Shown here: piece after piece, positions 31,626 through 42,351 of the stretch
Layout: each line of letters starts with the position of its first letter
Numbering within the stretch: the stretch's first letter is position 1
DNA from: Bacteroidales bacterium
GTDB lineage: Bacteria > Bacteroidota > Bacteroidia > Bacteroidales > P3
Length of the DNA stretch: 42,415 bases
Direction of reading: 5' to 3'
NCBI GenBank assembly: GCA_017613375.1
Contig: JAGADZ010000077.1
Location: 1 to 42,415 of the forward strand
Notes under the pieces: model-generated
Databases searched by the model: none
Seen by the model: the letters and a program-made list of their open reading frames with translations, nothing else
What the model was told of the DNA's origin: nothing
Program-made: the position numbers and the translations under genes

Positions 31626-32771
31626 ATGCAAAAAGACGACAATCCTTTCATTGTAAGCGGACATATCCAACCTCAGTATTTCTGCGACCGTCAGGTGGAA
31701 TCGGAGCGACTCACGAAGTTGCTTCTCAACGGCAATAATGTGGTGCTGAAATCAGACCGCCGTATGGGTAAAACAGGATTGATACAATACTGTTTCGATA
31801 AACCAGAACTTAGCAAGAGATACTATACCTTTTTTGTAGACATCCTTCACACCTCCTGCTTACAGGAGTTGGTTCACGAGTTGGGGCGGGCTGTGTACGA
31901 CCAGACGGTGCCGCACGGCAAAAAGATGACCCAGCGATTCCTCAAAGCCATCAAAAGTCTCAGTGGCAAGATGGGCTTCGATGCCAACACCGGTATGCCC
32001 ACTTTCAGTCTTGGGTTAGGAGATATCGAACAGCCAGAGTACACCTTAGAGGAAATCTTCCGCTATCTGCAGCAAGCCGACCACCCCTGCATTGTAGCTA
32101 TCGACGAGTTCCAACAGATTGGCCACTATCCCGAGAAGAATATCGAGGCGTTGCTGAGGGGATATATCCAGAAGATAGACAACTGCCGTTTCATTTTTGC
32201 TGGTAGCGAGAAGCATATGCTCGGGCGAATGTTTGACAGCGGCAACCGACCATTTTACAAGAGTGCCGACAGCATTGGACTGGAAGCTATTGCCCGTGAG
32301 GTATATGTGAAGTTCATTTGTCGTATGTTTGCCGAGCGGGGAAGAACGATTGACACTGCGTTGGCCGAGAAGGTGTATGACCTGTTTGAGGGTCACACCT
32401 ACTATGTGCAGAAGACTATGAACGAGGTTTTCTCCAACATGCCACGAGGTGAGCGGTGCACCGACGAGACTGTCCAGATGTCGTTGCAAGCGATACTCGA
32501 TGGGAACGATATGTTCTATCGTGATACTTTGTCGCGTATGCCTTTAAGACAGAAATCCTTGCTTTACGCTATTGCCACTGACAGGAAAGCTTCGCAGATT
32601 ACCTCTGCCGCGTTCATCAAACGGCATAAGTTGACATCTGCCAGTTCGGTGCAGACGGCCATCAAGAAACTATTGGAGGATGACTATATTGTGGAGGATG
32701 CCAAGCAATATCGGGTAAGCGACCGCTTCTTCGCACTGTGGATTCTTCGTCTCCTAGCATTGGGTATTTAA
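31626..32771 (+). CDS. AAA ATPase of the archaeal-type (ATPase_2) family
   Basis: The 381-residue protein begins with the family entry NPFIVSGHIQPQYFCDRQVE, a P-loop of the R-R-x-G-K-T form (SDRRMGKTGL, about 44-53) and Walker B CIVAIDEFQQI (about 156-166), then a sensor FIFAGSEKHML. The C-terminal part, about 290-381, is a winged helix (QITSAAFIKRHKLTSASSVQTAIKKLLEDDYI). The DUF234 nuclease domain found in some relatives is absent. These ATPases are abundant, variable accessory genes in Bacteroidales with no settled function; some are STAND-like and suspected in defence. It stands alone with its own promoter. Confidence 0.85.
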   Translation: MQKDDNPFIVSGHIQPQYFCDRQVESERLTKLLLNGNNVVLKSDRRMGKTGLIQYCFDKPELSKRYYTFFVDILHTSCLQELVHELGRAVYDQTVPHGKKMTQRFLKAIKSLSGKMGFDANTGMPTFSLGLGDIEQPEYTLEEIFRYLQQADHPCIVAIDEFQQIGHYPEKNIEALLRGYIQKIDNCRFIFAGSEKHMLGRMFDSGNRPFYKSADSIGLEAIAREVYVKFICRMFAERGRTIDTALAEKVYDLFEGHTYYVQKTMNEVFSNMPRGERCTDETVQMSLQAILDGNDMFYRDTLSRMPLRQKSLLYAIATDRKASQITSAAFIKRHKLTSASSVQTAIKKLLEDDYIVEDAKQYRVSDRFFALWILRLLALGI

Positions 32772-33296: not shown

Positions 33297-33298
33297 AG

Positions 33299-33372
33299 TA
33301 CCGCATGCCGGAGTCGAACCGGCGATCTACTGCGTGAGAGGCAGTTGTCCTGGACCACTAGACGAATGCGGC
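33299..33372 (-). tRNA. tRNA-Glu (anticodon CUC), first copy
   Basis: The minus strand folds as a complete 74-base tRNA: acceptor GCCGCAT/ATGCGGT, D arm, anticodon stem ACTGC/GCAGT with loop CTCTCAC (anticodon CUC, reading GAG), and T arm GCCGG-TTCGACT-CCGGC. CCA is not encoded. It is identical to the copy at 42278-42351. In this copy a 7-bp repeat array separates the gene from its promoter. Confidence 0.95.
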
Positions 33373-33480: not shown

Positions 33481-34008
33481 TCATGGATTTCTAGACTTGC
33501 TGATGTTTCGGAAATGGGTAGGAGTGATACCCATTATCTTCTTGAAGGCAGAATGGAAAACCTGACGATTGCTGTAGCCACACATCTCGCCGATGACCTC
33601 TATTTTATAGTTGTAATAATTGCTGTCGCTCAACAGGTGTACGGCTTCATCGACCCTGTAATGGTTAAGCAAAGAGGCAAAATTGTGGTTCAGATAGTTG
33701 TTGATTACAAACGAGAGTTTGGTCTTATTGGTGCCAACAGCTTTAGACAGGTCCTGCAGAGTAAGATTGGGATTTCTATATAGTTTATCCCTTTCCATCA
33801 ATTGTTGAAGGACATTGATTATGGCACGGCTCTGTTCATCCGAATTGTCAGGAATAACATACGACACTTTTTCAACCAGTATTTTCTTCGTTTTTTCCTC
33901 TTCGAGGTTTTTTTTCATTATCCTGTGATACACTCTCCGAATGTGGATGAACATAAAAAAAAGGACAAAATTAAAGATGAGCGATAATATCAGCACTATT
34001 GTTTTCAT
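33481..34008 (-). CDS. Membrane-anchored AraC-family transcription regulator without sensor domain
   Basis: The 175-residue protein has one N-terminal membrane helix (about 4-22, IVLILSLIFNFVLFFMF), a charged linker, and a C-terminal AraC double helix-turn-helix at about 78-170 (LTLQDLSKAVGTNKTKLSFVINNYL; VIGEMCGYSNRQVFHSAFKKIMGITPTHFR). Bacteroidetes have long TPR-membrane-AraC regulators; here the whole periplasmic/TPR sensor part is missing and the protein starts at the helix. It is divergent from the porin-pst-cys run, 200 bp away, and is the obvious candidate to control it. A TAnnTTTG match (34013-34020, minus strand) sits only 5 bp before the ATG, which would give a leaderless transcript. 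Confidence 0.82.
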   Translation of the reverse strand: MKTIVLILSLIFNFVLFFMFIHIRRVYHRIMKKNLEEEKTKKILVEKVSYVIPDNSDEQSRAIINVLQQLMERDKLYRNPNLTLQDLSKAVGTNKTKLSFVINNYLNHNFASLLNHYRVDEAVHLLSDSNYYNYKIEVIGEMCGYSNRQVFHSAFKKIMGITPTHFRNISKSRNP

Positions 34009-34208: not shown

Positions 34209-35327
34209 ATGAAATACTTTACTGTTTTTTTGCGTGTTGCCATCACTGTTAATCTATTATTATGTATTACAAGTGTTTGTGCTCAAAATAATACAGACAG
34301 CAGTAATTATGTTAGAAATGTGAAACTCGGAGGATGGGTAGATGCCCAGTATAGATATGAGAAAGGTGCAGATAATGAGAGTAGTGTGTTTCAAATCAGA
34401 CGTGTACGACTTGATTTCAAAGGCAGTTTGTCCCGATGGTTGGATTTTAGGTTACAGACAGATTTCGCCCCAAATCCGAGACTTATCGACGCCTTTGCCA
34501 AGATAAAAATCAACAAGTATGTCCAATTACAAGTAGGACAGTTTAAAATCCCTTTTTCGTTAGAAAACAAATTATCACCATTGGATTTGGAACTGATAGA
34601 CAATGCACAGGTGATAAACACACTATCGGGCTATAATGACATTACTGGCATAAGCAGTTATGCCAATGGGCGAGATATTGGGGCAATGCTTTCCGGCAAA
34701 TTGATAAATGCAATGGTTCAAGGTGAGAAAACTGCAATTATTTCGTATAGTGTTGGACTGTTCGGAGGCAACGGAATCAATGTAAAAACCGACAATATGG
34801 CTAAGGACATCGCGGCTCGTATTGAATTATGTCCTTTTTTACGTAATCTAACCCTTTCCGTTGCTGGTTATTGGGGAAAGTACGACATGCTGTATAACGG
34901 AATATCCACAAATCTTGACGGAGCCAGAAAACGATATGCTGGAGGTGTACAGTATACTGACAAACACTGGGTAGTGAGAACAGAATATTTGCTTGGCAAA
35001 ACTGAATTTGTGAATTATAATAATGAAACAGACAACTATAATCCCTACACTATAGAAACAAGAGGTTGCTATCTCACTTTGGGCTATTGGTTTACATACG
35101 AGATTAATAACAGGAACAATATATGTGGCCGTATTGCGCCAATGGCACGAATAGAATACTATGAGAAAAATGTGGCTTTAAATGTACAATCAATGTATTA
35201 TTCGGCAGGCTTCGACTGGTGGCCCGAGGAACACTTGCGTGTCCAGTTGGCATACAATATGCAGCAAAAAAAGACAGCAAGCCAATTAAATCATAAACTG
35301 ACAACAATGATAAGCGTGAAATTTTAA
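34209..35327 (+). CDS. Phosphate/anion-selective porin of the OprP/OprO family
   Basis: The 372-residue protein has a signal peptide (MKYFTVFLRVAITVNLLLCITSVCAQ) and a porin_O_P barrel: KLGGWVDAQYRYEKG, FQIRRVRLDFKGSLSRWLDFRLQTDFA, LQVGQFKIPFSLENKLSP, and a final beta-strand TTMISVKF ending in Phe, as outer-membrane barrels do. The family includes phosphate-, pyrophosphate- and other anion-selective channels, so it would pass an oxyanion across the outer membrane. I start at the ATG at 34209; a TTG at 34197 is in frame but has no support. The PstS-like gene follows after 15 bp. Confidence 0.88.
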   Translation: MKYFTVFLRVAITVNLLLCITSVCAQNNTDSSNYVRNVKLGGWVDAQYRYEKGADNESSVFQIRRVRLDFKGSLSRWLDFRLQTDFAPNPRLIDAFAKIKINKYVQLQVGQFKIPFSLENKLSPLDLELIDNAQVINTLSGYNDITGISSYANGRDIGAMLSGKLINAMVQGEKTAIISYSVGLFGGNGINVKTDNMAKDIAARIELCPFLRNLTLSVAGYWGKYDMLYNGISTNLDGARKRYAGGVQYTDKHWVVRTEYLLGKTEFVNYNNETDNYNPYTIETRGCYLTLGYWFTYEINNRNNICGRIAPMARIEYYEKNVALNVQSMYYSAGFDWWPEEHLRVQLAYNMQQKKTASQLNHKLTTMISVKF

Positions 35328-35342
35328 ATACCAACAAATCAC

Positions 35343-36350
35343 ATGAATAATTTTAAGAAAATAACTTCTCTTTTCATGATGTCCATAGCCCTGCTTTTGT
35401 GTGGCGGACTCTTTTTATCAATGGTCTCCTGCGGTGGTGCCAACCAACAGAGAGATAGTGGCTCCGACGACCATCTGTCTGGAAGTATCTCTATTTCAGG
35501 TGCCTTTGCTCTGTATCCCTTAGCTGTGAAATGGACCGAGGAATTCCAAAAAATACATCCAAATGTCAAGATTGACCTGTCGGCAGGCGGTGCCGGAAAA
35601 GGTATGACAGATGTCCTGGCCGATGTGGTTGACTTGGGAATGGTGTCGCGCGAGGTTTATTCACCAGAGTTGGAAAGAGGTGCGCTTCCTTTTGCAACAG
35701 CTAAAGATGCCGTTGTCATCACCATCAACGCAAGCAACCCTTTGGCGGGAGAGCTTAAGAAGCATGGCATTTCCAAAGATGTGGCAACAAAAATATGGAT
35801 TACAGGTGAGTACACCACTTGGGGACAAGTTTTGGGTAATGGCGACAGAACACCAATCCATGTCTATACACGCTCAGATGCCTGTGGGGCAGCCGAGACT
35901 TTCGCCATGTGGATGGGCAAAAAACAGGAGGATTTGCTTGGAACCGCAGTGTTTGGCGACCCTGGGTTGGCTTCTGCCATTCAGGCAGACAAATTGGGTA
36001 TCGGACTGAACAATATAGGATATGCTTACGATGAAAAGAGCCGTAAACCCAATGCAGGTCTTATGATATGCCCGATAGATGCGAACAATGATGGGATGAT
36101 AGATGAGGATGAATATTTTTATGACACCAAGGATGACTTTATTGCAGCTGTGGCCGAAGACAAATACCCATCGCCTCCGGCTCGCGACCTGTATTTGGTC
36201 AGTCATGGGATACCGACAAATCCTGTCGTGGTGGCATTCCTGCAATTTGTGCTTGGCGAAGGACAGAAATACAATGTACCTGCCGGATATATAAACTTGC
36301 CCGAGGATAAGTTGCAGAAAGAGTTAGAACAGCTGAAAGCCAATAAGTAA
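35343..36350 (+). CDS. pstS: PstS-family oxyanion-binding lipoprotein of an ABC importer (substrate possibly sulfate)
   Basis: The 335-residue protein has a lipoprotein signal (LSMVSC, Cys30) and a PBP_like_2 fold typical of PstS: SGAFALYPLAVKWTEEFQK, SAGGAGKGMTDVLADVVDLGMVSRE, and R177-SDACGAAETFAMW. In usual PstS proteins the corresponding blocks read GSTxxxP, GGGSGxG and RxxGSGTRxxF; here the Ser/Thr residues that hold phosphate are largely replaced (GAFAL, GGAGKG, CGA). An EF-hand-like loop D-A-N-N-D-G-M-I-D-E-D-E is at about 246-257. It lies between the porin and the two permease genes, in an operon with cysDNH, so sulfate or another oxyanion is as likely as phosphate. Automatic pipelines would call it a phosphate-binding protein. 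Confidence 0.82.
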   Translation: MNNFKKITSLFMMSIALLLCGGLFLSMVSCGGANQQRDSGSDDHLSGSISISGAFALYPLAVKWTEEFQKIHPNVKIDLSAGGAGKGMTDVLADVVDLGMVSREVYSPELERGALPFATAKDAVVITINASNPLAGELKKHGISKDVATKIWITGEYTTWGQVLGNGDRTPIHVYTRSDACGAAETFAMWMGKKQEDLLGTAVFGDPGLASAIQADKLGIGLNNIGYAYDEKSRKPNAGLMICPIDANNDGMIDEDEYFYDTKDDFIAAVAEDKYPSPPARDLYLVSHGIPTNPVVVAFLQFVLGEGQKYNVPAGYINLPEDKLQKELEQLKANK

Positions 36351-36380
36351 CAGAATGTTATCCTATCTTACAACAATTGA

Positions 36381-37274
36381 ATGCATAAAACTCGAATAAT
36401 CAAAGACAAGGCGGCACAAACGATAATGTTTGCGCTTACCGTGCTTGCCATTCTGCTTGTTGTGGCAATAGCCATAGGATTGTACCTCAAGTCAATGCCT
36501 GTGTTACAGGACAAATCACTGTGGTCGTTGTTGTTTTCTTCAGAATGGCGACCCATGAAAGGCAATTTTGGTTTCTTTCCGTTCATAATGGGAACTATCT
36601 GGGTGACGTTTATGGCCATTTTGCTGGCTTTCCCCATTTCCGTGTTGACAGCCATCTATTTGACCGAGTATTCCAAACCTGTTGTGCGGAAGATTGTTTT
36701 TCCGGCATTGGACATTCTGGCCGCACTTCCTTCGGTCATTTACGGTGTTTGGGGTGTACTGGTCATAGTTCCATGGATATCGCAGCATGTGGCACCTCAC
36801 TTTGTTGAGTTCTCTACAGGTTACACGGTCTTGGCAGCGGGAATTGTGCTTGGAGTCATGGTGATACCGCTGTTGATTAGCTTGTTTATCGAAATCTTCT
36901 CCGGGGTGCCTGTCGAGTTGCGTGAAGCCTCTCTTGCTCTGGGCGCTACACGTTGGCAAACCACCAAGAAAGTTGTATTACGCAAAACGATTCCTGGCAT
37001 TCTGGCATCTACAGTACTGGCCGTATCGCGTGCCATGGGTGAAACCATAGCGGTATTGATGGTATGTGGCTGCGTGATAGGCATTCCCAAAGGGATGATG
37101 GATGCCTGCTATCCTATTCCCGCCCTAATCGCCAACAACTATGGGGAGATGCTTTCCATGCCGCTATATGAGTCGGCATTGATGTTTGCTGCACTCATTC
37201 TATTTGCCGTAGTATTGATTTTCAACTTAATATCAAGAATCGTACTCTATCGTTTGGGAAAAACCGAAAAATAA
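36381..37274 (+). CDS. pstC: PstC-like permease of the oxyanion ABC importer
   Basis: The 297-residue permease has six membrane helices and the EAA loop ELREASLALGATRWQTTKKVVLRKTIPGI (about 177-205) that docks on the ATPase. The SRAMGETIAV block, whose Arg and Glu are needed for phosphate transport in E. coli PstC, is kept. LAALPSVIYGVWGVLV is typical of PstC/PstA. It is 30 bp after the binding-protein gene and 12 bp before pstA. Confidence 0.88.
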   Translation: MHKTRIIKDKAAQTIMFALTVLAILLVVAIAIGLYLKSMPVLQDKSLWSLLFSSEWRPMKGNFGFFPFIMGTIWVTFMAILLAFPISVLTAIYLTEYSKPVVRKIVFPALDILAALPSVIYGVWGVLVIVPWISQHVAPHFVEFSTGYTVLAAGIVLGVMVIPLLISLFIEIFSGVPVELREASLALGATRWQTTKKVVLRKTIPGILASTVLAVSRAMGETIAVLMVCGCVIGIPKGMMDACYPIPALIANNYGEMLSMPLYESALMFAALILFAVVLIFNLISRIVLYRLGKTEK

Positions 37275-37286
37275 AAGTATCGTAAT

Positions 37287-38141
37287 ATGAAAATTGCTCG
37301 AAAGAAAAAACTTAGAGAAAGTGTTGCCAAGCTCTTCATGTGGTGTGCTATGCTCGTTGTGTTTGGTTTGGTAATCAGTGTCATCTGGACAATTTTTTCC
37401 AAAGGCTGCAAAGCAATGAGTTGGGACATGGTGAGCAAGTTGCCGGGAGGAGGATTCTATATCGGCAAGGAAGGCGGTTTTCTTAATGCCATTGTCGGTT
37501 CACTCTACATAGTTGGTGCATCAACAGTATTAGGATTAATCGTCTCTATACCTGTGGTCTTTTTCCTTAATATATATTTGAAAAAAAACTCTAAATTGGC
37601 ATATGTGGCGAGACTGGCGTTTGATGTGCTGTTCGGCGTTCCCTCCATTGTTTACGGTGCTTTTGGATTTACAATTATGATTTACTTTGGGTTGCGTACA
37701 TCGCTATTGGGCGGAATAATAGTTATTACCCTGTTGATAATACCTATCTTTATCCGTACAATGGATGAGGCGACACGCAACTTTCCACGTGACATATTGG
37801 ATGCCAGTTTTTCATTGGGAGCCACACGGTGGGAGACCCTCAAGGTTGTTTTGCGTCAAATCGCGCCTGGCATTGCGACAGCCACACTGTTGTCGGTAGG
37901 CCGTGCCATTGGCGACGCTGCCAGCGTGATGTTCACAGCTGGATATACCGATAGCATTCCCACTTCGTTGTCGCAACCGGCAGCGACATTGCCTTTGGCG
38001 GTTTTCTTCCAATTGAGCAGTCCGATTCCAGAGGTTGTCGACCGCGCGTATGCAGCCGCACTTGTGCTGACCATCATCGTTCTGCTGCTCAGCATATCAG
38101 GTCGTTTTATTACCAACAGATTCTCCAAAAACAAAGTATAA
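37287..38141 (+). CDS. pstA: PstA-like permease of the oxyanion ABC importer
   Basis: The 284-residue second permease has six helices, GVPSIVYGAFGF, and the EAA loop RDILDASFSLGATRWETLKVVLRQIAPGI (about 171-199). The usual ARAIGEAAP block reads GRAIGDAASV, with Asp replacing Glu. The gene ends 2 bp before the ATPase gene. Confidence 0.88.
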   Translation: MKIARKKKLRESVAKLFMWCAMLVVFGLVISVIWTIFSKGCKAMSWDMVSKLPGGGFYIGKEGGFLNAIVGSLYIVGASTVLGLIVSIPVVFFLNIYLKKNSKLAYVARLAFDVLFGVPSIVYGAFGFTIMIYFGLRTSLLGGIIVITLLIIPIFIRTMDEATRNFPRDILDASFSLGATRWETLKVVLRQIAPGIATATLLSVGRAIGDAASVMFTAGYTDSIPTSLSQPAATLPLAVFFQLSSPIPEVVDRAYAAALVLTIIVLLLSISGRFITNRFSKNKV

Positions 38142-38143
38142 CC

Positions 38144-38896
38144 ATGTCGATAGAAATACAAAAACTCAATGTTCATATAAAAGACAATCATATTCTTAAG
38201 GATGTGAATATCGTCCTGCCCGAAAAGCAGATCACCTGCATCATAGGCCCTTCAGGATGTGGAAAGTCCACCTTATTGAAAACCATAAACCGTTTGATTG
38301 ACGGCGTTGAAGGTGTGAAACTTGAAGGCAATGTTTTTGTTGACGGTCAAGATATTATCAATTCGGGGACTGAGATAACCGAGTTGCGGCGAAAGATTGG
38401 ATTGGTAAGTCAGCGTCCGTGTCCGCTCCCGATGTCTATATTTGACAATGTAGCATACGGATGCAGGATTAACAAGATGTTCAAGAAACGCCGACAGCTG
38501 ATATATCATGTGCAGAAGAACTTGAAGTCGGTGGGGTTGTTGGAAGAGGTAAAGGGTCGGATACGGACACCCGCGGCACGACTCTCCATAGGGCAGCAGC
38601 AGCGACTGTGTCTTGCCCGTTCATTGGCAGTACAGCCGGAATATATCCTTGCCGACGAGGCCACCAGCGCGCTGGATCCCATATCAGCCAAGACAGTGGA
38701 GGACCTCTTTGTCAAACTGAAGGAAAAATATTCCATCATTATGGTTACACACACACTGCATCAGGCACTCCGCATCGCCGATAACGTGGTATTCATGTAT
38801 TTAGGCGATGTAATCGAGAGCGGTCCGGCCGAGCAAGTGTTCCATCATCCCCAGCACGAGCTCACTCAAAAATATCTTGCAGGTGCATTTTCTTAA
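38144..38896 (+). CDS. pstB: PstB-like ATPase of the oxyanion ABC importer
   Basis: The 250-residue ABC ATPase has Walker A GPSGCGKST (35-43), Q-loop Q90 in VSQRPCPLPMSIFDNVAYG, signature LSIGQQQRLCLARSLA (from 147) and Walker B YILADEATSALDP. It is clearly PstB-derived (compare the canonical VFQ.PNPFPMSIYDNVAYG), yet the signature is LSIGQ instead of LSGGQ and Walker B has DEA instead of DEP. No phoU follows, unlike most pst operons; cysD starts 34 bp later. The ATPase should still work, since the second Gly and the Gln of the signature and the catalytic Glu are present. Confidence 0.88.
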   Translation: MSIEIQKLNVHIKDNHILKDVNIVLPEKQITCIIGPSGCGKSTLLKTINRLIDGVEGVKLEGNVFVDGQDIINSGTEITELRRKIGLVSQRPCPLPMSIFDNVAYGCRINKMFKKRRQLIYHVQKNLKSVGLLEEVKGRIRTPAARLSIGQQQRLCLARSLAVQPEYILADEATSALDPISAKTVEDLFVKLKEKYSIIMVTHTLHQALRIADNVVFMYLGDVIESGPAEQVFHHPQHELTQKYLAGAFS

Positions 38897-38930
38897 ACAA
38901 ATTAATAGTTAAATAATAAACAATACAGCA

Positions 38931-39830
38931 ATGTATAAACTTACTCATCTGAAAGAGTTGGAATCCGAGTCCATCTACGTGCTGCGTGAGGTAGCGGCAC
39001 AGTTCGAGCGTCCCGCAATCCTGTTTTCAGGCGGCAAGGATTCCATTGTAGTCACTTATCTGGCTTACAAAGCTTTTTATCCAGCTAAAATACCATTCCC
39101 TTTGGTTCATATTGATACAGGTCACAATTTCCAAGAGACCTTGGATTATCGTGACGCTTTGGTCAAAAAACTTGGGGTACAGCTGATTGTTGGTTCCGTG
39201 CAGGAAAGTATAGATACAGGGCGCGTAAAAGAGGAAAAAGGCTACAATGCCAGTCGCAATCGTCTTCAAACCACAACGTTACTGGATACAATAGAGAAAT
39301 ACAAGTTCGATGCATGCATAGGAGGAGCACGACGTGACGAAGAGAAAGCACGTGCCAAGGAGCGTTTTTTCTCCCACCGTGACGAATTTGGACAGTGGAA
39401 CCCCAAAAACCAGCGTCCTGAGTTATGGAACAACTTCAATGGCAAAAAGAACATGGGCGAGCATTTCCGCGTCTTCCCCATCAGCAATTGGACGGAAATG
39501 GATGTCTGGCAATACATTTATGCAGAGAAAATTGAGTTGCCATCGCTCTATTTTACGCACGAGCGTCGCTGTTTTTATCGTGATGGGCAATGGCTGGCAG
39601 CAGAGCCATGTATGACACTGAAGCCAACCGAGGAGGTGGTTACACGGCGTGTGCGCTGCCGCACTATCGGTGACATCACCTGCACAGGGCTTACCATTTC
39701 TGAAGCCAATAATCTTGAAGACATCATCAACGAAATTGCCGCCACCCGTGTTACTGAGCGCGGCGGTCGCGCCGACGACAAACGCAGCGAGACGGCAATG
39801 GAAGACAGAAAAAAGGAGGGATATTTCTAA
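38931..39830 (+). CDS. cysD: Sulfate adenylyltransferase subunit 2
   Basis: CysD is the ATP-pyrophosphatase-fold subunit of ATP sulfurylase, which makes adenosine 5'-phosphosulfate (APS) from sulfate and ATP. The 299 residues contain the PP-loop SGGKDS (33-38), VHIDTGHNFQETLDYRD, GGARRDEEKARAKERFFSHRDEFGQW and FPISNWTEMDVWQYI, with RVRCRTIGDITCTG near the end. It is separated from pstB by 34 bp and from cysN by a single base. Confidence 0.96.
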   Translation: MYKLTHLKELESESIYVLREVAAQFERPAILFSGGKDSIVVTYLAYKAFYPAKIPFPLVHIDTGHNFQETLDYRDALVKKLGVQLIVGSVQESIDTGRVKEEKGYNASRNRLQTTTLLDTIEKYKFDACIGGARRDEEKARAKERFFSHRDEFGQWNPKNQRPELWNNFNGKKNMGEHFRVFPISNWTEMDVWQYIYAEKIELPSLYFTHERRCFYRDGQWLAAEPCMTLKPTEEVVTRRVRCRTIGDITCTGLTISEANNLEDIINEIAATRVTERGGRADDKRSETAMEDRKKEGYF

Positions 39831-39831
39831 T

Positions 39832-41121
39832 ATGAACACCAACGGATACTTAGACATGGAGCTGCTGCGCTTTACGACAGCCGGCAGTGTTGATGACGGC
39901 AAAAGCACTCTCATCGGAAGACTTTTGTACGACAGTAAGTCGATTTTTGAAGATCAGCTTGAGGCTGTGAAACAGGCGTCGGAGAGTCGCGGTAATGAGG
40001 AGATGAACCTTGCGTTGCTTACCGACGGGTTACGCGCCGAACGCGAACAGGGAATAACAATCGACGTGGCATACCGCTATTTTGCCACTCCCAAGCGCAA
40101 GTTCATCATCGCCGACACCCCAGGCCACATACAGTACACTCGCAACATGGTGACGGGCGCTTCAACCGCCGATCTGGCCATCATCCTAATAGACGCACGC
40201 AATGGAGTGGTCGAGCAGACCGTTCGCCACTCTTACATATCATCATTGTTGGGAATCCCTTATATCACTGTGTGCATCAACAAAATGGATTTGGTTGATT
40301 TCGACGAGAAAAGGTTTGATGAGATACGTGGACGTTATCTGGAAATGGCGGAAAAACTTTGCATTCAAGCAGAGATACTCTTTATTCCGATTTCAGCCAA
40401 GTATGGAGACAATGTGGTTGAAAAATCCGGAAATATGTTGTGGTATAAAGGTGGTTCGCTCATGAATCTGCTGGAGACGGTCTCTATCAACCATAAATCC
40501 GGTAACGAAGACGAGCCCATGCGGCTACCTGTGCAATACGTCATACGTCCAATCTCCAACAAATTTCCCGACTATCGTGGATATGCCGGACGAATGGCCG
40601 GTGGAATCCTCCGTGTAGGCGACACAGTGATAATTCACCCCTCAGGCATAACTTCAAAAGTGAAAGCTATCATGCAGGCAGAAAAACCGTTGGACATGGC
40701 GCATACGCCAGAATCGGTGGCTGTTCTTCTGGAAGACGACATCGACATCAGCCGCGGTGACTTAATAGTTGGAATGGGAGGAAGACAACCGGAAGTGACC
40801 CAAACCATTTCTATGATGTGCTGTTGGTTCAATCCTGAGGCCATGCAACTGGGCAAACGCTACATAGTAAAAAGCTCAGTGGCGGAAACCGTTGGAATGG
40901 TAAAAAAGATTGATTATAAAATAGATGTTAGTACATTAGGACACATTAGCAATGTCGAAAACCTACAAATGAACGACATTGCAAGGATCACTTTGCGTAC
41001 AGCCAACCCTATGGTTCTCGACAACTATGCCGACAACCGCACCACCGGCTCACTTATACTTATCGACCCCGATAGCTTCGAAACTGTCGGTGCAGGTATG
41101 GTGACATCCACTAGTCACTAA
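39832..41121 (+). CDS. cysN: Sulfate adenylyltransferase subunit 1 (GTPase)
   Basis: CysN is the EF-Tu-like GTPase that drives APS formation by CysD. The 429 residues show G1 AGSVDDGKST (17-26), G3 DTPGHIQYTRNM (about 92-103), G4 NKMD and G5 SAKYGD, followed by two beta-barrel domains. There is no fused APS kinase (CysC) domain. The start at 39832 has a strong AAGGAGG sequence 11 bp upstream, inside the cysD end, and fits the family N-terminus; a longer reading from 39649 is only the cysD region in another frame. The stop codon lies inside a 7-bp repeat array. Confidence 0.96.
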   Translation: MNTNGYLDMELLRFTTAGSVDDGKSTLIGRLLYDSKSIFEDQLEAVKQASESRGNEEMNLALLTDGLRAEREQGITIDVAYRYFATPKRKFIIADTPGHIQYTRNMVTGASTADLAIILIDARNGVVEQTVRHSYISSLLGIPYITVCINKMDLVDFDEKRFDEIRGRYLEMAEKLCIQAEILFIPISAKYGDNVVEKSGNMLWYKGGSLMNLLETVSINHKSGNEDEPMRLPVQYVIRPISNKFPDYRGYAGRMAGGILRVGDTVIIHPSGITSKVKAIMQAEKPLDMAHTPESVAVLLEDDIDISRGDLIVGMGGRQPEVTQTISMMCCWFNPEAMQLGKRYIVKSSVAETVGMVKKIDYKIDVSTLGHISNVENLQMNDIARITLRTANPMVLDNYADNRTTGSLILIDPDSFETVGAGMVTSTSH

Positions 41122-41150
41122 TCACCAATCCCCAATCACTAATCACCAAT
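41109..41150. repeat. Perfect-period 7-bp array across the cysN stop and cysH start
   Basis: Six uninterrupted 7-bp units (CACTAGT, CACTAAT, CACCAAT, CCCCAAT, CACTAAT, CACCAAT) begin inside the last codons of cysN, include its TAA, and end exactly one base before the cysH ATG. There is no purine-rich ribosome site in the array, so cysH start must depend on coupling or on an unstructured AU/CA-rich leader. Confidence 0.8.
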
Positions 41151-41861
41151 ATGAAATACATACAGAAAGACATTGATTTTTTGAATCAAAAGTTTGAGAA
41201 TGCAGCTCCCGAGGAGGTGTTGCGGCATTTTATGGCGGAATATGGAAATAGAATTGCACTGTCATCCAGCTTGAGCATCGAGGACCAAACCCTTACAGAC
41301 ATGATGCTGAAGATTGACCCTGATGCACGAATCTTCACATTGGACACGGGACGCCTGTTCCCTGAAACATACCAGTTGATTGACAAAACCAATTATCGCT
41401 ACAACATCAAGCTGGAGGTTTTCTGTCCACAGGCAGAAGCTCTACAACGTTTTGTTCATGAGCAGGGTATCAATCCATTTTACGAAAGTGTCGAAAAAAG
41501 ACATGCCTGCTGTCAAGTACGGAAACTGGAGCCTTTACAGCGTGCATTCAAGACCCTTGACGCATGGATTTGCGGTTTACGCCAGTCGCAGTCAATAACC
41601 CGCAGCAACATGAGGATGGTGGAGTGGGATGAAAAACATGGTCTACTTAAGATCAACCCATTGATTTTTTGGTCTGAACAGCAGGTATGGGATTATGTCA
41701 AGGCTAAACACGTACCTTACAACAAATTGCATGACAAAGGTTTTCCGAGCATTGGCTGCGAGCCGTGTACAAGGGCGGTAAAGCTCGGCGATGATATTCG
41801 CTCAGGTCGATGGTGGTGGGAGTCGCCCGACCATCGCGAATGTGGTCTTCACCGCAGATAA
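41151..41861 (+). CDS. cysH: Assimilatory adenylylsulfate (APS) reductase, [4Fe-4S] type
   Basis: The 236-residue enzyme reduces activated sulfate to sulfite. It has both cysteine pairs that bind a [4Fe-4S] cluster, C120-C121 in HACCQVRKLEPL and C203-x2-C206 in IGCEPCTRA, and the catalytic Cys231 in the C-terminal ECGLH. Presence of the cluster cysteines marks an APS reductase rather than the cluster-free PAPS reductase, which explains why no cysC (APS kinase) is in the operon. The sulfite reductase for the next step is not in the window. The 41862-42277 gap after it holds two minus-strand gene fragments and one plus-strand fragment. Confidence 0.94.
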   Translation: MKYIQKDIDFLNQKFENAAPEEVLRHFMAEYGNRIALSSSLSIEDQTLTDMMLKIDPDARIFTLDTGRLFPETYQLIDKTNYRYNIKLEVFCPQAEALQRFVHEQGINPFYESVEKRHACCQVRKLEPLQRAFKTLDAWICGLRQSQSITRSNMRMVEWDEKHGLLKINPLIFWSEQQVWDYVKAKHVPYNKLHDKGFPSIGCEPCTRAVKLGDDIRSGRWWWESPDHRECGLHRR

Positions 41862-42263: not shown

Positions 42264-42275
42264 TTTTATCGCTTT
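42237..42275 (-). terminator. Terminator of tRNA-Glu, second copy
   Basis: AAAGCGATAAAATC (42244-42257) pairs perfectly with GATTTTATCGCTTT (42262-42275). It has the same form as the terminator of the first tRNA copy. Confidence 0.85.
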
Positions 42276-42277
42276 GG

Positions 42278-42351
42278 TACCGCATGCCGGAGTCGAACCG
42301 GCGATCTACTGCGTGAGAGGCAGTTGTCCTGGACCACTAGACGAATGCGGC
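42278..42351 (-). tRNA. tRNA-Glu (anticodon CUC), second copy
   Basis: Identical over its full length to the tRNA at 33299-33372, in the same orientation, with the same terminator type and promoter element. The two copies bracket the AraC-porin-pst-cys module. Confidence 0.95.

Follow-up and report, generated by a model that had tools for sequence, protein, structure and literature searches.

The window analysed here, an entire contig of 42,415 bases (JAGADZ010000077.1) from a Bacteroidales genome assembly of 1.78 Mb that is 78% complete, holds an operon of eight open, co-directional + strand genes in the order porin–pstS–pstC–pstA–pstB–cysD–cysN–cysH. Gene context and sequence comparisons indicate that this operon is very probably a unit for assimilating sulfate to sulfite that includes a dedicated ATP-binding cassette (ABC) sulfate importer, derived from the phosphate importer Pst; on this reading the importer would work as a Pst importer does, with a different ion. 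An earlier note made from the letters of the window had proposed such a route, from the outer membrane to sulfite through a recruited Pst-type importer, and the comparisons reported below support it. We further consider it likely that the subfamily to which the importer belongs represents one more class of sulfate importers in bacteria, which is Pst-derived, spread across Bacteroidota and the second of the ABC type. Its marks are the binding-pocket motifs GAFALxP, GGAGKG and RSDA[CA]GAAE, a Glu-to-Asp change in PstA, often a dedicated outer-membrane channel, an AraC or Rrf2 regulator beside it, and a PstC that the current model names a phosphate permease.

From porin to cysH the intergenic gaps measure 15, 30, 12, 2, 34, 1 and 29 bp; the open reading frame coordinates, all on the + strand, agree with the gene run and the seven gap sizes listed in the earlier note. 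Its statement that the run includes neither phoU nor a sulfate permease is likewise borne out: neither the operon genes nor the divergent AraC-family gene gave a Pfam match to SulP, DASS, CysZ or CysP–PiT, and no phoU follows pstB up to the contig end. By domain, the two permeases are of the BPD family and PstB is an ABC ATPase. CysD and CysN, together with a CysH of probable APS type and no CysC, make up the set of the adenosine 5′-phosphosulfate (APS) branch of assimilatory sulfate reduction. We take the cysteine motifs of CysH to be a sign of an APS reductase; the protein additionally scores above the 3′-phosphoadenosine 5′-phosphosulfate reductase models NF002537 and TIGR00434. In the proposed mechanism, sulfate would cross the outer membrane through the porin of the operon and be captured by the PstS-like lipoprotein in a remodelled pocket; PstC, PstA and PstB, judging by homology and the ATPase motifs, would then import it with ATP. 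CysD and CysN are predicted from family membership to make APS, and CysH to reduce it to sulfite.

Linkage to cys genes and to phoU

Two overlapping sets were compared; genomes bear G numbers and loci L numbers throughout. The first set is a sample of 190 genomes of the family. The second comes from a scan of genome contigs with an alignment of the lipoprotein (alignment A1), which confirmed at least 515 related loci, of which the best 80 were used; some of their contigs are also contigs of genomes with G numbers.

In the family sample the importer follows CysD closely. Lipoprotein orthologues (49–100% identity) occur in 20 of the 190 genomes, and CysD scores above its cut-off in 18; the importer is present in 18 of these 18, versus 2 of the 172 genomes without CysD (Fisher p 2.7e-23, with relatedness ignored). 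Thirteen further genomes have only weak PstS matches of the canonical type, at no more than 36.2 bits, and none of the 13 has CysD above the cut-off. The importer adjoins cysD in 13 of the 18 CysD genomes, and in five, all of one genus, it forms a separate operon with cysD and cysN elsewhere.

The earlier note had raised the question of whether orthologues of the importer always neighbour cys genes. Among the 42 of the best 80 loci that are well flanked (at least 5 kb to the left and at least 7 kb to the right of pstS), cysD, cysN or cysH is present in 40 and all three in 35. The importer also accompanies CysD in genomes where the two lie apart. Over all 80 loci, cys genes are found in 59, and 12 of the other 21 have less than 3 kb of contig after pstS. 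The best 80 of the at least 515 related loci gave no match to cysC, and a tblastn search of the same 80 with E. coli dauA, cysZ and pitA, a weak search for distant members, returned nothing. Matches resembling cysI adjoin the operon in L213, L218, L220, L129, L136 and L148. In G062, a second copy of the module (L050, contig C40) reads cysN–cysH–porin–pstS on a contig of 3.7 kb, with a PstS 63% identical; either a second operon or a stray contig could explain it.

Counting loci with distinct pstB sequences and at least 1.5 kb beyond pstB, phoU is present in 0 of 72 subfamily loci versus 21 of 23 canonical Pst loci, and none of those 23 canonical loci contains cys genes. The earlier note had also pointed to a second, canonical pst–phoU locus as informative. 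In the host genome no second PstA or PstC was found besides the two of the operon, an absence that is weak evidence at 78% completeness, and the sole PhoU match is part of a 587-residue NptA-like sodium/phosphate transporter. Other carriers do have such a locus: among 30 carrier genomes a second Pst locus above the PstC cut-off is found in 10, with a phoU match in nine of the ten, and in all 10 its PstS matches E. coli PstS or canonical Bacteroidota PstS. Na_Pi_cotrans is present in 15 of the 30 and PHO4 in 15 (14 above the cut-off), PHO4 matches being no proof of phosphate uptake, as that family also covers the sulfate permease CysP. Taken together, some other possible phosphate route (second Pst, Na_Pi_cotrans or PHO4) is matched in 29 of the 30 carriers, the exception being G062, which is 76% complete.

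These counts bear on one rival explanation, that this is an ordinary high-affinity phosphate importer which sits in a cys operon by happenstance. PstC and, barely, PstA exceed the curated phosphate cut-offs (Table 1), the Porin_O_P family of the porin is named phosphate-selective, nearly all solved relatives are phosphate proteins, and no further Pst is seen in the incomplete host genome. We nevertheless judge this explanation improbable, as the importer tracks CysD, lacks phoU in the 72 loci with room for it and coexists with other phosphate-route matches, and as most of the hydroxyl ligands for phosphate are changed in its binding protein, as described next.

Binding pocket and permeases

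The ligand hydroxyls for phosphate in E. coli PstS are, we take it, those of Thr10, Ser38, Ser139 and Thr141, and Asp56 is presumably the residue that discriminates phosphate from sulfate. Aligned to that protein, the lipoprotein of the window has Ala at Ser38, Cys at Ser139 and Ala at Thr141; Phe-Ala stands at Thr10-Phe11, which puts Phe or Ala at Thr10, and Ser then Arg at Asp56. Arg135, Asp137 and Gly140 are kept. Ala at positions 38 and 141 is found in all 17 compared subfamily rows; at position 139, nine rows carry Cys, seven Ala and one (L214) Ser. By comparison, five PstS rows from the second systems keep every ligand (one with Ser for Thr10), and four canonical rows of the SSR type keep Ser38, Arg135, Ser139 and Thr141 and do not keep Thr10, Asp56 and Asp137.

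The altered pocket segments recur throughout the subfamily (Table 1). The exceptions in the motif counts are L118, which is cut by the contig, L125, which was misread in the pattern count, and L066, which reads GGSGKG. Cys30 of the lipoprotein is invariant in the ten rows of alignment A1. Two possible lines of proof were set aside. The motif RSDACG was rejected as independent proof for the related loci, where YTRSDACG was itself a search pattern; distant rows found by profile read R[SA]DA[CAS]GAAE. Loss of Asp56 was rejected as a sole signature of sulfate, as phoU-linked SSR-type Bacteroidota PstS proteins are without Asp56 too. Solved structures include no close relative, the best match scoring 93 bits.

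The permeases also set the subfamily apart. In a PstC tree of 51 rows, a single branch with a support of 100/100 splits 34 subfamily rows from 17 canonical rows; E. coli CysU, CysW and PstA, which gave long-branch joins, and L131, which is identical to L060, were left out. The PstA of the subfamily carries Asp at a place where canonical PstA carries Glu (Table 1). The earlier note had counted against its own proposal that PstC keeps the Arg/Glu pair needed for phosphate transport. This objection fails, because E. coli CysU and CysW share the pair, the aligned places reading RSLGE in CysU and RAIGE in CysW. Of 86 distinct subfamily rows, 84 retain the pair, with either Arg or Lys opposite the Glu; the subfamily PstC proteins of L216 (G297) and L217 (G471) have Asn at both positions.

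The importer departs from the Pst phosphate system in two of the features tested, the ligands and phoU, and therefore should not be classed as a phosphate transporter. Several observations nonetheless weigh against a sulfate importer. The co-occurrence counts are not independent among related genomes. G155 (97% complete) and G315 (100% complete) carry the importer without a CysD match, as does G001, which is 61% complete and whose contig ends in pstB, and in G190 the CysD match, at 192 bits, is below the cut-off. The pocket substitutions are imperfect, in that L214 keeps Ser139 and L066 (G188) keeps Ser38, and Asp56 is also missing from phoU-linked canonical PstS of the SSR type. Among solved-structure matches with E <0.001, 28 of 30 are named phosphate proteins and the other two have neutral names. 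Finally, a SulP encoded elsewhere in the host genome (C4:44654–45811) could carry sulfate.

A further rival is that the substrate is not sulfate but an anion used alongside it, for example thiosulfate, sulfite, a sulfonate, selenate or molybdate. Pocket motifs unlike those of canonical PstS would suit such a substrate, and so would the two near-complete carriers without CysD; yet thiosulfate, sulfite and sulfonates would need no CysD or CysN, and the importer is present in every CysD genome of the family sample. We hold this to be as improbable as an ordinary phosphate importer.

A dual phosphate/sulfate importer, in a cell that takes up sulfate mainly via the SulP of its genome, would account for the retention of Arg135, Asp137 and the PstC Arg/Glu pair. 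SulP is indeed common, in 169 of the 190 family genomes (167 above the cut-off) and in 17 of the 18 CysD genomes, where G056 is counted by a below-cut-off match; it is, however, about equally common without CysD (152 of 172; p 0.70), and almost all subfamily members share the ligand substitutions. This explanation appears the least probable of those considered. More generally, SulP as a dedicated sulfate route is unsupported, as its presence does not follow that of CysD. A Pst-derived sulfate importer is our preferred reading.

Distribution and genomic surroundings

The subfamily extends well beyond the family. In a phylum sample of 392 genomes, each at least 90% complete except the host genome, scores of the lipoprotein profile are bimodal: 11 genomes, the host included, reach at least 340 bits, and the next best reaches 95. 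Eight of the ten other carriers have CysD above the cut-off, G190 has the sub-threshold match given above and G315 has none. The importer lies beside a cys cluster in three of these ten distant carriers (L213, L218 and L220), the order in L213 being cysH–cysD–cysN–cysG–cysJ–cysI–porin–pstSCAB. Because the arrangement recurs across Bacteroidota, it is not due to chance.

The neighbouring regulators and outer-membrane proteins vary. A regulator of the Rrf2 family, which includes the Firmicutes cysteine regulator CymR, lies upstream in five of the ten distant loci. Within 4 kb of pstS in the best 80 loci, an AraC match is present in 21 and an Rrf2 match in five, and most loci show neither with these queries. 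A porin match is found in 55 of the 80, and some distant carriers have an Alginate_exp barrel, a TonB-dependent receptor or a DUF2490 protein as the outer-membrane neighbour. Subfamily pstS-like genes also occur as orphans, without adjacent pstCAB, in L090, L133, L146, L104 and L110, with a porin in L133, L104 and L110. In L219 (G315, the carrier without a CysD match) pstCAB is flanked by two subfamily pstS genes.

In the window, the AraC gene and the operon, a segment of about 8.9 kb, lie between two directly repeated tRNA-Glu(CTC) genes whose upstream and terminator sequences resemble each other. An equivalent pair flanks the operon in G062 (L049), and no tRNA-Glu was found in 28 other loci scanned, some of which have short flanks. 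It may be that the whole bracketed module has moved or was inserted as one unit. An open reading frame of 381 amino acids with a Walker-A-like stretch lies at 31626–32771, upstream of the first tRNA. The closest named records are largely Bacteroidales assemblies from the rumen and other ruminant guts.

Table 1 Features of the operon and its borders, with positions in the window
Feature	Position	Strand	Basis
tRNA-Glu(CTC), first of two direct copies bracketing the module	33298..33372	-	
AraC-family regulator, divergent	33481..34008	-	Pfam HTH_18; relatives near the same operon in other carriers
Outer-membrane porin, OprP/OprO type	34209..35327	+	Porin_O_P PF07396, 72.6 bits (cut-off 20.9)
PstS-like substrate-binding lipoprotein	35343..36350	+	PF12849 PBP_like_2, 101 bits; TIGR02136, 104 bits, below cut-off 206.6
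PstS-like residues 53–59, GAFALYP, at the E. coli Thr10/Phe11 loop	35499..35519	+	GAFALxP in 109/111 subfamily proteins; 0/10 canonical PstS rows, E. coli included
PstS-like residues 82–87, GGAGKG, with Ala84 at the place of E. coli Ser38	35586..35603	+	108/111 subfamily proteins; Ser in canonical rows
PstS-like residues 177–185, RSDACGAAE; Arg135 and Asp137 retained, Cys at Ser139 and Ala at Thr141	35871..35897	+	Alignment
PstC-like permease	36381..37274	+	TIGR02138, 260 bits, above cut-off 196.45; tree
PstC RAMGE motif, Arg/Glu pair	37029..37043	+	Pair shared with E. coli PstC, CysU and CysW
PstA-like permease	37287..38141	+	TIGR00974, 195.3 bits, narrowly above cut-off 193.45
PstA RAIGD, Asp in place of the canonical Glu	37902..37916	+	Alignment: Asp in 83/83 distinct subfamily rows, Glu in 24/24 canonical rows, E. 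coli included
PstB-like ATPase with Walker A, signature and Walker B motifs	38144..38896	+	TIGR00972, 310 bits, below cut-off 343
cysD, sulfate adenylyltransferase small subunit	38931..39830	+	TIGR02039, 419 bits
cysN, sulfate adenylyltransferase GTPase subunit	39832..41121	+	TIGR02034, 543 bits
cysH, probably APS-reductase type	41151..41861	+	TIGR02055, 259 bits (cut-off 235); CCxxRKxxPL and SxGCxxCT motifs
tRNA-Glu(CTC), second copy	42275..42351	-	

Relation to known transport systems

If the proposed function is correct, sulfate uptake in Bacteroidales gains a candidate gene set. Annotation-based views of phosphate and sulfur metabolism would need revision in many genomes from gut and rumen, since in 30 of 30 carriers examined the curated PstC model takes the importer for a phosphate permease. 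The subfamily would also be a natural case of a PstS fold converted in specificity from phosphate to sulfate. How proteins discriminate between anions is a classic problem, and here the substitutions can be tested individually.

Searches of the open literature, which leaves out most subscription journals, turned up no account of a sulfate importer of the Pst type. A comparative genomics survey of sulfate transporters covers, in the sections available, five families, SulT, SulP, CysP, DASS and CysZ, none of them of the Pst type (PMC5840216). The closest precedent described there is CysP of Bacillus subtilis, a member of the PiT family in which residues critical for phosphate are replaced (PMC5840216), and another study reports that CysP and a TauE-family protein restore growth of E. 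coli without cysA (PMC11535334). The system of the window resembles CysP in that a phosphate family would have been turned to sulfate, losing residues critical for phosphate; in contrast to it, CysP is a permease of another family and not an ABC importer.

With SulT (CysPUWA) the importer would share ABC import of the same ion, and the R-x-x-G-E of its PstC is common to E. coli CysU and CysW. It nevertheless belongs to a different ABC family, its permeases scoring 29–42 bits against cut-offs of 246 for the CysT model TIGR02139 and 329 for the CysW model TIGR02140. The porin falls in the same Porin_O_P family as the OprP/OprO phosphate porins, from which the system differs in that some distant carriers have an Alginate_exp, TonB-dependent or DUF2490 neighbour instead. 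With Pst itself (PstSCAB–PhoU) the importer shares its subunit plan: both consist of a binding protein, two permeases and an ATPase in the order pstS-C-A-B, and the PstC and PstA of the window pass the NCBIfam models. In contrast to Pst, however, the subfamily is without phoU, the PstS and PstB of the window fall below their models and the phosphate hydroxyls are changed; its PstA reads RxxGD in place of RxxGE, it forms a separate group in the tree, and it is linked to cys genes.

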